Under the pieces are notes generated by a model that saw only the letters and a list, made by a program, of their open reading frames with translations, was not told the origin of the DNA and searched no databases. Both the position numbers and the translations under genes were made by a program. Below are positions 8,006-49,062 of a stretch of 52,073 nucleotides of DNA, piece after piece (the first letter of the stretch is position 1; each line of letters starts with the position of its first letter). Where the stretch lies: positions 1-52,073 of the forward strand of contig JAJTFN010000053.1 in assembly GCA_021298285.1 (NCBI GenBank), given 5' to 3'. The stretch comes from Verrucomicrobium sp. (GTDB taxonomy: Bacteria > Verrucomicrobiota > Verrucomicrobiia > Limisphaerales > UBA9464).

Positions 8006-9186
8006 ATGAAAATCGTACTCGCATACTCCGGCGGCCTCGACACCTCGGTGCTGCTCTCCTGGATCAAGGAAACCTACGGCAACGCCGAGATGATCGCGTT
8101 CTGCGCCAACATCGGCCAGGATGACGAACTCAAGGGACTCGAGAAGAAGGCCAAGAAGACCGGTGCCTCCAAGATCTACATCGACGACCTGCAGGAGGAG
8201 TTTGCCCGCGACTTCATCTACCCGATGCTCCGGGCCGGCGCGATCTACGAGGGACAGTACTTCCTGGGCACCAGCATCGCCCGCCCGCTCATCGCCAAGC
8301 GCATGGTCGAGATCGCCCGCGCCGAGAAGGCCGACGCCATCGCCCACGGCGCCACCGGCAAGGGCAACGACCAGGTGCGCTTCGAGCTGACGGCCGCCGC
8401 GCTGGCGCCCGAATTGGAAATCATCGCACCGTGGCGCGATGCCCGCTACCGCAAGGACTTCCCGGGTCGTCAGGAAATGATTGATTATTGCACCTGCACA
8501 TCTCCTACGAGGCCGGCATCCTGGAGGATCCCTGGTACGATTCGTTCGACCTCAAGAACCGCGACTACTTCACCACCCTGTCGGTGCTGCCCGAGGATGC
8601 CCCCGACAAGCCCGAGTACGTGACCCTGGACTTCGTGAAGGGCGACTGTGTGGCGGTCAACGGCAAGAAGCTCAACCCGCTGCAGGTCATGCGCACCCTC
8701 AACAAGATCGGCGGCAAGCACGGCGTCGGTCGCGTGGACATGGTGGAGAACCGCTTCGTGGGCATGAAGAGCCGCGGCGTGTACGAGACCCCGGGCGGGA
8801 GCATCCTGCACTACGCCCACCGCCAGATGGAGAGCCTCACCATGGACCGCGAGGTCATGCACCAGCGCGACGCCCTGATCCCGAAGTACGCCGAGCTGGT
8901 GTACAACGGCTTCTGGTACGCGCCCGAGCGCCTGGCGTTGCAGGCCTATGTCGAGGAGAGCCAGAAGAACGTCACCGGCACCGTCCGCGTGAAGCTCTAC
9001 AAGGGCGGGCTCTATGTCGCCGGCCGCAAGAGCCAGTTCAGCATGTACAACCCGCACATCGCCACCATGGAGGCCGACCCCACCAAGGCCTACAACCAGG
9101 ACGATGCGACCGGGTTCATCCGGCTCAACGGCCTGCGCCTGCGCGTCAACTCGACGGTCAACGGCGCCAAGAACCTTCAGGGCTGA
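8006..9186 (+). pseudogene. argG: Argininosuccinate synthase, disrupted by an internal deletion and frameshift
   Basis: ArgG joins citrulline and aspartate with ATP in arginine synthesis. The N-terminal part (8006 to about 8488) starts with the ATP-binding AYSGGLDTS and continues through [13 protein letters not shown] and PWRD to MIDY. The C-terminal part is in another frame (about 8494-9186) and starts at [15 protein letters not shown], running through [22 protein letters not shown] to a normal end. Family members have about 23 residues between these points (roughly HGIPV...SMDxNL). Here only eight bases remain, and the frame change means the lost length is 1 modulo 3, about 61 bases. Both halves are otherwise well conserved, which suggests a recent lesion or an assembly error. 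As written, the first frame ends at 8623. Confidence 0.93.
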
Positions 9187-9842
9187 CCTCTGGAAGGCTC
9201 CCCCGGGGCGTTTCCTCCCGGGGACCAATCCGAGGGGGTGTTCCAGTTGACCAGGGCATGGGGGTCTCCCGGGGGCGCTTCCCAGGGGACCATCCATCCG
9301 GCCTCAAGGCCTCGGCGGCAGAACTCCTGCACCGAGCCCTTGGGGTTTTCAGGCGGGCGCTCGAGATGGGCCCGGGCGACGGCCCAGGACCGGTTCGGAT
9401 AAATCGCCGCCAACGGTTCCAGTCGGTCGCCATGCAACGCCACGCATCCCGACCCGGGGCGGATCGCGGCGATCAGGCGCCGCAGCCAACCAGCCGACAT
9501 CCCGGGCAGATCGACGGCGAGGACGAGTGTCCAACCGTCGTCCGGGTCCGGACGCAGGCCCCTGGCCCATCGGAGTCCGCGTTCCACGCCGGCCAACGGG
9601 CCCAGGCCGGGGTGAAGATCGCGCAGCAGGGGGATCTCCGCAGGGGTGCAGGGCAGGGGATCGCGATCCTCCGGTCCGGCCGCGATGGCGATGTTCCGGA
9701 GGCCCGCCTCGGTGAGCAGCCCAAGCTGCCTCAGGAGCAGCGGTTTCCCGCCGACCTCGAGCCAGGCCTTGTCGCGGCCCATCCGCAGCGAGCGTCCACC
9801 GGCGAGGACCACGCCGCCGAGTTGCTCCGGTGCCTGTGACAC
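9177..9842 (-). CDS. mobA: Molybdenum cofactor guanylyltransferase (MobA-like)
   Basis: 221 aa, GTG start. It belongs to the NTP-transferase fold. The N-terminal [22 protein letters not shown] matches the nucleotide-binding signature LAGGxSxRMGxDKA, and LAVDLPGMS supplies the metal-binding Asp region. MobA attaches GMP to molybdopterin to form the guanine dinucleotide cofactor. The C terminus overlaps the end of argG by ten bases, tail to tail. No other molybdenum genes are in the window. A related nucleotidyltransferase of another pathway is possible but less likely given the motif. Confidence 0.85.
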
Positions 9843-9978
9843 CCCGGGAGGCTTTCCCCGATCGCGGCCCTTGTCACCCGGGCTTCTCGCTTCGCCGACG
9901 GGTTTTTCCCCGAGTGCCTAACCTCGGGCTCGACGAAGCTCCTTGCCCCGGGACCGCGGTCGGGGGTTTCCTCCGCCC

Positions 9979-46037: not shown

Positions 46038-49000
46038 TGCGCCGCCCCCGCCCCTCCCTCCCGCCGTCCCGCGGGGTTCTCCGCCCGGTCGGTCGACGTA
46101 TCCCGGGCTCCGGTCCGGGCTTGCCTGTCTTGGTGGCCCTGATCGCCCTGGCCGGCTGGATGACCCGACCGGCCCTCGCGGCCGTCACCCCGCTGGCCAT
46201 CGATCGGCCGGCAACCGGGGCGTCGGCGCCGGTCGGTTTCCAGAAGGACATCCTGCCGATGTTCCAGGCCAACTGCCTGCCGTGCCACAACCAGACCCGG
46301 GCCAAGGCGGGCCTGAACCTGGAGACGGCGGCGGCGCTGCTGCGCGGGGGAGACACCGGCCCGGGCGCGGTGCCTGGCAAGCCGGCCGAGAGCCTCGTGC
46401 TCAAATCGGCCGCGCATCAGGTCGAGGACCTGGTCATGCCCCCGGCCGGCAACAAGTCGAATGCCCGCGACCTGACCCCGCAGGAGTTGGGCCTGCTCTG
46501 GCGCTGGATCGAGCAGGGAGCCAAGGCCGACCAGGCGGTCGTGGTGGAGCCGTCCTGGAAGCCCATCCCGCGGGAATGGAACTCCAGCTTCGCCGTGGCC
46601 CTCGACTCCGAGGGCGGCGCGGTGGCCGTGGCCCGGGCCAACCGGGTCAGTGTCCTGGAGGTGGCCACCGGCCGCACCCTGGGCCGGCTCGAGGATCCTT
46701 CGCTCGACGGTGCCACCCAGCGCGACGTGGTGGGGGCACTGGCCTTCAGCCCCGATGACCAGTGGCTGGCGACCGCCGGCTTCCGGGAGGTGCGCCTGTG
46801 GCAGCGCCGCCCGGTGACCGTCGAGCCGGTGCTGGCCGTCCCTCCCGGCTCGGCCTGGGTGGCCGCCGACTTCTCGCCCGATGGGACGGTGCTGGCGTCC
46901 CTCAAGGCCTCGGGCCACCTGGAGATCCGGGCCGATCCTTTGGGGAGGCTGCAGGGTGCCTGGGCCCTGAAGGGATTGTCCGCGACTGGGGGGGACCGGT
47001 CGGTGCGCTTCCGATGGTCGACGGACGGGCGTTGGCTCGCGGTCCTCTCGGGGAGGGAGTGCTGGAACCTCTCGTTGGGCCGGTATTCGCTGGCCCAGGC
47101 GCCCACGCTGCCCGCCGTGCCGACCGGCATGGCCTGGGTTCCCGGCGACGGGCATTGGTCGATCACCTACGGAACGAACCATCCGGCCCAGCGGTTGCGG
47201 CGGGCCGGAGCGGAGCCGGGCGGTGCCTGGATCCTCGAGGACGCCCCTGGGGTTCCGACGGGGGTGACGGCCCTGGCCTCGGATCCCATGGCCGAGGGCG
47301 CCCTTTGGGGAACCGACGGCACGGGCGGACTGCGCCGGTGGGGTCGGGCCACGGCTGGTCCGCGCAGCCTTCCGGCGGCGGTCCAATCGCTGCTCTGGTC
47401 CCGGTCGGGCTCCAACGGCGTGGCCATCCTCGCCGACGGTTCGGCGACCCGGGTGGACGTCGGTCTCTCGTCCACCAATGCCCTCCGGATGGCCGGTGAT
47501 CCCCGATTGTCCGCCGACGCGGCCCGCCAGGAGCGTGAACTGGAACGGGCACGCCTGGAGGTCACCCTGGCGGGCGCCCGCATCCAGGAGTCGCGGACCG
47601 CGGTGACCAACGCTCAGTCGGCGCTCGGCAAGGCCCGCGAGAAGCGCGACCAGACCGCCAAGGCCCTGGCGGAGCGCCAGAAGGAATCGGCCGACCAGGA
47701 GGCCGTGGTCGCCTCGGCCACCAAGGACCGCGATGCGGCCGACGCCGAGTTGGCCAAGGCCCGGGCCGAGGCCCAGTCGGCCGGGGACGCCCTCCAGAAG
47801 GCCTCGACCGCCGCCAAGGCCTCGCCCGAGGCCGCCCTCCGCGCCGTCGACGACCTGCTGGCCAAGGCGGAGGCCGTCGGACGCGCCAAGGCCCTGCTGG
47901 AGCGGGCCGAGGCCGAGGTGCCTCCCCGTCGCAAGAAGGCCGAGGAGATGCTGGCCGCCGCCCAGAAAAAGGTGGGTGAACTCAAGCCGCCGCTGGACAA
48001 GGCCCGCATCGCCGCCGAGGGGGCCGCCCAGGATGTCGTGCTTTCGGAGAAGGCCGTCGCGTCGGCGACCGACGCGGTGACCACCGCCGAGGGCGAGGAA
48101 CGGCAGGCCCGGTCCCGGGTCTCGACCGCCGAGACCCGGGTGGCGACGGCGCGTTCCGCCCGGGACCGCTCGGCCGCCCGTCCGATCCGTGCCGCCGCCC
48201 TGTCGGCGTCCGGCGAGTCGCTCCTGACCGTGGGGGAGGGAGGGCTCTGGACCCGATGGCATCCCGGGACCGGTCGGGCGGTGGAGACCTTCGCCACCGG
48301 CCAGGGGGAGCCGCTGGCGCTGGCCGCGCTGGGGGAGGACGAGTTCCTGGCGGCCTATCCCGATGGGGTCCGTCGCATCCGCACCGCCCGCCCCTGGTTC
48401 CTGCGCCAGCGCATCGCCGGCACCACCAACGCCCCGGCCTTCGCCGACCGGGTCAACGCCCTGGCCTTCAGTCCCGATGGCACGCTGCTGGCCACCGGCG
48501 GCGGTGAGCCGTCGCGCTCCGGGGAGCTCAAGCTGTGGAAGCTCCCGGAGGGCACGCTGGCCGCGACGCCGTCACCGCCGTGGCCTTCTCGCCGCGCGGC
48601 GACCGCCTGGCCACCGCTGGCACCGACCGCTTCGCGCGCATCACCGGGCTGCAGACCAACGCGCCGCGGTTCCACCTCGAGGGGCATACCCATCATGTGA
48701 TCGGCGTGGCCTGGTCTCCCGATGGCGGGGTGCTGGCGACGGCCGGGGCCGAGGGGTCCGTCAAGTTGTGGAATCCCCGCACCGGCGAGCGGCGCAAGAA
48801 CGTCGACGGCTTCGGCAAGGAAGTCACCGGGCTGCAGGCGGCGGGCTCGTCGCTGCGCTTCGTGGCGTTGAGCGGGGCCGGCGGCGGCCGCCTCTTCAAG
48901 GCCGACGGCGAAAAGGTGCGCGACCTGGCCTCCGTGCCCGACTACCTCCAGGCCCTGGCTGTCAGCCCCGATGGCCGATGGATCGTGGGGGGCGACGATC

Positions 49001-49062
49001 GCGGCAACGTGCGGGTTTGGGACGCGGAGAATGGTCAGTTGCGTCAGAGTTGGGCGCCGTGA
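46034..49062 (+). pseudogene. Cytochrome c/WD40 protein with long coiled coil, frameshifted near its end
   Basis: The protein starts with a signal segment and a planctomycete-type cytochrome c domain (Cys81, Cys84 and His85, NCLPCHNQ). WD40-like blades follow (ALAFSPDDQWLATAG), then a coiled coil of about 200 residues (47520-48180), then more blades. At about 48557-48562 the frame changes: LKLWKLPEGTLA ends in the first frame, and RDAVTAVAFSPRGDRLATAG continues in another through GHTHHVIGVAWSPDGG to the stop at 49062. About seven residues of a typical blade (such as REFKDAH) are absent, roughly 22 bases. The first frame would otherwise stop at 48700. It is the last gene of the DUF1501 cluster. 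Confidence 0.85.

Follow-up and report, generated by a model that had tools for sequence, protein, structure and literature searches.

Short unmarked losses in five genes of a Verrucomicrobium draft genome, very probably introduced by joins made during assembly

The stretch of DNA analysed here, referred to as the window, is one whole contig of 52,073 bp (JAJTFN010000053.1) belonging to a draft genome of Verrucomicrobium sp. (GenBank assembly GCA_021298285.1; 3,365,471 bases, 244 contigs, 88.9% complete). Five of its genes, namely argG, a sulfatase gene, a haem/HEAT gene, a PPC gene, and a WD40 gene (Table 1), each lack a short internal segment. In DNA alignments, gaps found in the window only amount to 61 bases in argG, 141 in the sulfatase gene, 75 in the HEAT gene, 80 in the PPC gene, and 22 in the WD40 gene, with junctions near positions 8490, 13198, 20443, 44957, and 48562, respectively. 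Between four and eight relatives were aligned per site (eight for argG, six for the sulfatase gene, four each for the HEAT and PPC genes, and five for the WD40 gene). No aligned relative of the same genus shares the gap at any of the five sites; all of them are intact. The reading frame is lost in argG, the PPC gene, and the WD40 gene and kept in the sulfatase and HEAT genes. The same sizes were returned by a protein census and by an anchored DNA test against the best five loci per site, two stray readings apart (81 bases for the PPC gene against genome G015 in the anchored DNA test, and 28 for the WD40 gene against G016 in the protein census). A sequence-only reading of the window had listed these five genes as carrying short internal losses within otherwise intact sequence, and both statements are borne out; old variation shared within the family, which it had considered as well, finds no counterpart among the aligned relatives. 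As argued below, comparison of the assembled sequences makes it very probable that the five losses stem from joins introduced in assembly and not from deletions in the organism.

For comparison, 18 genomes of the same genus as the window were listed, and a set of 80 loci was drawn on, titled mainly as Verrucomicrobia metagenome-assembled genomes (MAGs) with some Akkermansia, Proteobacteria, and others. None of the 80 loci is a same-species assembly, and the set may omit the window's own genome. There is slight overlap among the relatives' loci, and G010 includes 3,956 bases of N. Gene order in the window is conserved in G010, and matches to G014, G015, G003, and G016 (the latter in three contigs) are collinear with it; G016 is the closest of the relatives used. 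The window's own genome was read over 694,709 of its 3,365,471 bases, window included, in contigs chosen by number and by match to relatives and therefore not a random sample. Length differences between genes (near 15584, 16447, and 26840) were excluded from the count of losses.

In the relatives, the motif CSPTR, the sulfatase active-site signature, falls inside the segment absent from the window's sulfatase gene. Sulfatase and SGNH/GDSL hydrolase domains share one reading frame in this gene (window 12976-15582). Each of the 18 same-genus genomes likewise has, as its best match, one open frame of 904-1033 amino acids spanning both the sulfatase and the SGNH part, and the fusion was thus not created by the join. 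A second copy of argG was not found in the 88.9% complete genome (one match, in G000). Neither piece of the PPC gene has a Pfam match, and its name is the one given in the sequence-only reading.

That reading missed a probable sixth join near 27,880, which would remove the start of a DUF3574 gene. In the anchored DNA test the window is shorter here by 166 bases than G016 and by 85-117 bases than four others; the left flank agrees with G016 as far as the break, and the right flank starts inside the DUF3574 gene. Because the relatives themselves differ in length at this place, the site is less certain and was kept out of the 14 losses counted below.

Table 1. Damaged genes and joins in the window
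Feature	Coordinates	Strand	Evidence
argG (argininosuccinate synthase), interrupted by a frameshifting loss of 61 bases at about 8490	8006..9186	+	Pfam PF00764 and PF20979, one per half and out of frame with each other; gap against 8/8 relatives
argG join, 61 bases absent	8490..8494	+	DNA alignment, anchored DNA test, junction analysis
Sulfatase/SGNH-hydrolase fusion gene, in-frame 141-base loss in the N-terminal part of the sulfatase	12976..15582	+	Domains; DNA 6/6, protein 8/8 relatives
Sulfatase join, 141 bases absent	13195..13199	+	DNA alignment, anchored DNA test, junction analysis
Haem/HEAT gene (DUF7133 + HEAT + cytochrome c), in-frame 75-base loss	19058..22099	+	Domains; DNA 4/4 relatives, protein 8/8 relative genomes
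HEAT-gene join, 75 bases absent	20441..20444	+	DNA alignment, anchored DNA test, junction analysis
DUF3574 gene, start probably lost at a join near 27,880	27776..28180	+	DNA comparison with relatives
PPC gene, interrupted by a frameshifting loss of 80 bases at 44957	43748..46037	+	DNA 4/4 relatives, protein 5/5
PPC join, 80 bases absent	44957..44958	+	DNA alignment, anchored DNA test, junction analysis
WD40/planctomycete cytochrome C gene, interrupted by a frameshifting loss of 22 bases at 48562; approximate start	46040..49062	+	Pfam PSCyt1, WD40; DNA 5/5 relatives
WD40 join, 22 bases absent	48562..48565	+	DNA alignment, anchored DNA test, junction analysis

Similar losses recur across the part of the genome that was read, and such frame breaks are nearly absent from its relatives; the earlier proposal of one common cause is supported. 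A frame scan based on codon usage, which detects frame-shifting losses only, found 31 same-strand frame breaks in the 694,709 bp read from the window's genome. Five of them lie on N runs and one (window 30156) is probably a gene overlap; the remaining 25 were not checked one by one, and some may be overlaps or false calls. With the same thresholds, eight relatives yielded a single frame break in 664,558 bp, which is again probably a gene overlap. When run previously with one codon model, the scan had returned 18 breaks in 293,667 bp of the genome, 3 in the window, and none in these eight relatives. Contigs shorter than 9 kb carry 15 breaks in 220,933 bp, those of 9-25 kb 2 in 73,129 bp, and those above 25 kb 14 in 400,647 bp; that breaks are commonest in the shortest contigs fits thin coverage.

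At the level of DNA, 17 further sites outside the window were tested, which gave nine losses free of N, three N-run joins, and five sites that were dropped. The nine N-free losses measure 33, 44, 47, 65, 82, 126, 133, 169, and 283 bases; those in locus L276 and two in L292 are supported by three or four relative genomes. DNA and protein comparison differ slightly in size for L281 (133 versus 139), L282:4218 (126 versus 105), and L292:6742 (47 versus 50). The dropped sites are L280:2366 (DNA gap of 0, leaving the +65 of the protein census unconfirmed), L292:7645 (21-114 among relatives), L292:14195 (30 against G016, 3 against G015), L292:15653 (0 against G016 and G015, 66 against G010 only), and L279:8860 (78 in the protein census, without a DNA result). 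Window and outside sites together thus provide 14 N-free losses in 133,390 bp compared, or about one per 9 kb. Seen from the other side, the largest G016-side gaps inside 95 kb of alignment are two of 21 bases, and the unaligned stretches against G016, of 28 and 100 bases, lie beside genes only. Core genes are among those affected: argG, uvrA, queA (found in two pieces, at profile positions 1-207 and 220-342), a UDP-glucose-dehydrogenase-like gene, and an mqnC-like gene, whose match is below the family cut-off with a query truncated at the end of the locus. In addition, tuf and the citrate synthase gene are interrupted by N runs. One of the frame breaks, at L287:10036, lies between hemA (profile matched to 326 of 416) and hemC and may reflect either a join at which the end of hemA disappeared or overlapping genes.

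Besides the N-free losses, the 694,709 bp contain eight short N runs, of 71, 74, 35, 4, 46, 32, 21, and 2 bases. Several of them stand within conserved genes. Such runs indicate that the assembly was scaffolded with estimated gap lengths. Four of the runs could be sized and were thereby established to lie inside genes, and the gap is understated at all four. In tuf (L216:2965-3035), 71 N stand in place of about 216 bases, the EF-Tu profile being matched to position 294 and resuming at 367; the true gap is 70 bases against 35 N in uvrA, 142 against 32 N in an unnamed gene, and 46 against 2 N in the citrate synthase gene. The shortfall thus amounts to 145, 35, 110, and 44 bases, respectively. 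Since run length differs from the true gap, these short runs are not masks that keep length. A single continuous run of 3,078 N (L285:19329-20000 and L286:1-2406) is probably masked sequence, unlike the short scaffold gaps.

These observations suggest how the losses could have arisen. Small gaps would have been left uncovered by sequencing, and the contigs flanking each gap would have been linked, presumably by read pairs, with the length of the gap underestimated by tens of bases. Where the estimate was positive, that many N would have been written; where it was zero or less, the contigs would have been butted end to end without N, and 22-169 (once perhaps 283) bases would have vanished unmarked. 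Any gap smaller than the underestimate would therefore receive an estimate of zero or below, and 22-141 bases, the range of the window's N-free losses, is of that size. A single step could in this way account for both the N-run joins and the N-free joins, and abutment at an estimate of zero or less appears to be the simplest reading. An artefact, which the sequence-only reading had treated as the outcome that would overturn its idea of a shared process, hence fits best, although the N runs that understate their gaps point to an error of scaffold joining and not to one of the library.

Some other assembly-stage error that involves no gap estimate (for instance, contig ends falsely overlapped over a short length, gaps filled with sequence of a related strain, or strain variants collapsed into one) would likewise yield clean, genome-specific losses blind to reading frame. 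That overlaps were handled imperfectly is indicated by two N runs with similar sequence on either side, as judged by eye (L287:14333 and L225:3299), and by a tandem copy on a frame break in L286. Sequence shared between left and right at the junctions, however, amounts to 0-4 bases in the 13 N-free joins analysed (L282:4218 was left out) and to zero in seven of them, in a test limited by the fact that the relatives' sequence substitutes for the lost bases. This is short for a false overlap, although the relatives differ from the window's genome by 5-30% there, and strain collapse leaves the gap-understating N runs unexplained; errors of this group are accordingly considered unlikely. The tandem copy itself, a 25-base unit present twice at L286:9668-9720 at the frame break L286:9691, may mark a join at which an overlap between the contig ends went unrecognised. 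As the general case, tandem copies left by failed overlaps were rejected, close direct repeats being not commoner here: repeats of at least 20 bases number 3 in the 694,709 bp of the window's genome, as against 4 in 299,823 bp of G016, 13 in 376,714 bp of G010, and 0 in 80,000 bp of G015.

The sequence-only reading had favoured slippage in replication or amplification, hairpin skipping in library preparation, or a deletion-prone process in the cell, and none of these is supported by the joins. Had structured segments been cut from the reads while DNA was amplified or libraries were prepared, whether by hairpin skipping or by slippage, the missing segments should stand out by their structure. 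GC content is indeed high (0.69), and the segment lost from the HEAT gene has a GC content of 0.80 and falls within the most stable 7% of the background. Yet only two of 16 missing segments (that of the HEAT gene and one at an N-run join) lie in the most stable tenth, as computed on the relatives' segments with RNA energy parameters, and the GC content of the missing segments is ordinary; a hairpin or GC cause was rejected on these grounds. Slippage between repeats was rejected in turn because of the 0-4 bases of junction homology. Moreover, one exact junction common to independent molecules would be unexpected, and the N runs would be left unexplained, which makes a cause in amplification or library preparation very improbable.

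Real deletions in the living lineage, produced by a deletion-prone or end-joining process, could draw support from the same junctions, since homology of 0-4 bases resembles that of end joining, and from the confinement of the losses to one lineage. Such deletions would, however, have had to accumulate at about one N-free loss per 9 kb compared and without selection for frame (four of the 14 N-free losses have a length divisible by three, close to the one third expected by chance) in argG and other core genes. Mismatches to G016 are not raised beside the joins either: at eight joins (five in the window and three elsewhere) the nearest six bases on each side contain 11 mismatches in 96 positions, compared with 103 in 1,056 from there onward to 72 bases. 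Pseudogene decay in the lineage is disfavoured on this count and because core genes are affected, and error-rich contig ends were rejected on the same mismatch counts. In addition, gaps of the same kind are marked by N inside tuf and the citrate synthase gene. Real deletion is therefore regarded as the least credible kind of origin, and it would strain belief no less that the lineage truly carries hundreds of small near-blunt end-joining deletions in core genes with the N runs being coincidental.

A number of points nevertheless weigh against scaffold joining as the source of the losses. The window itself contains no N (a count of 0), no document was found stating that the assembler used places contigs end to end at an estimate of zero or below, and the 283-base loss is larger than any underestimate measured. 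The evidence consists of assembled sequence. Sizing was possible at four of the eight N runs, three of them against the single relative G010 (at 73-87% identity in DNA) and the fourth with a family profile, and six of the nine outside N-free losses (in L225, L277, L278, L280, L281, and L282) are supported by G010 alone. Finally, frame breaks occur in other assemblies as well, with 8 in 1,133,059 bp among 70 loci outside the UBA group; these belong to the 74 loci that were scanned after exclusion of six shorter than 5 kb, the other four being UBA loci.

The N runs of the window's genome have a parallel among these four. The UBA-type third-party annotation (TPA) assemblies UBA3063 (L213) and UBA3939 (L199) also contain odd-length N runs (2 to 114 bases), seven in all, whereas the 70 non-UBA loci contain none. 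One N run of 2 bases is present in L016 (G024). This common style hints at a pipeline shared by the window's genome, L199, and L213. UBA genomes were reportedly assembled with CLC, and it is our guess that the window's genome is one of them. The likeness is incomplete. The four UBA loci carry four frame breaks in 81,891 bases, three of which lie at or beside N runs, and, unlike in the window's genome, N-free joins are hardly evident there; the other two UBA loci (L189 and L212) contain neither N nor frame breaks.

An apparent repeat was noticed along the way. A stretch of 85-95 bp of G010 (L245:9077-9168) matches about 30 contigs of the window's genome. In G010, where alone the translation was read, it encodes GFTLIELLVVIAIIAILAGLILPAL, presumably the prepilin N-terminal signal, and the matches probably represent many pilin-like genes and not a DNA repeat.

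Damage of this general type has been described before. According to passages of Chen et al. (2020, Genome Research, PMC7111523), protein-coding genes in MAGs are left incomplete or incorrect by scaffold gaps and local assembly errors, and N were inserted despite overlap in IDBA-UD and CLC assemblies. In another paper (PMC6461757), CLC was used for that paper's own genomes. The present losses resemble the cases treated in those passages of Chen et al. in that errors of scaffold joining damage genes and the distance between contigs is mishandled. They differ in that gaps are here understated, apparently often to zero, so that the loss is unmarked by N.

Most likely, then, the losses are a familiar type of assembly artefact rather than a trait of the bacterium. 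They have no significance for its biology and amount to a practical warning on draft genomes, in which N-free joins can silently delete about 20-170 bases and give rise to spurious pseudogenes, frameshifts, and domain losses. N runs of odd length in other parts of an assembly constitute a cheap warning sign of such joins, by which scans for recoding, programmed frameshifting, or gene decay would be misled.

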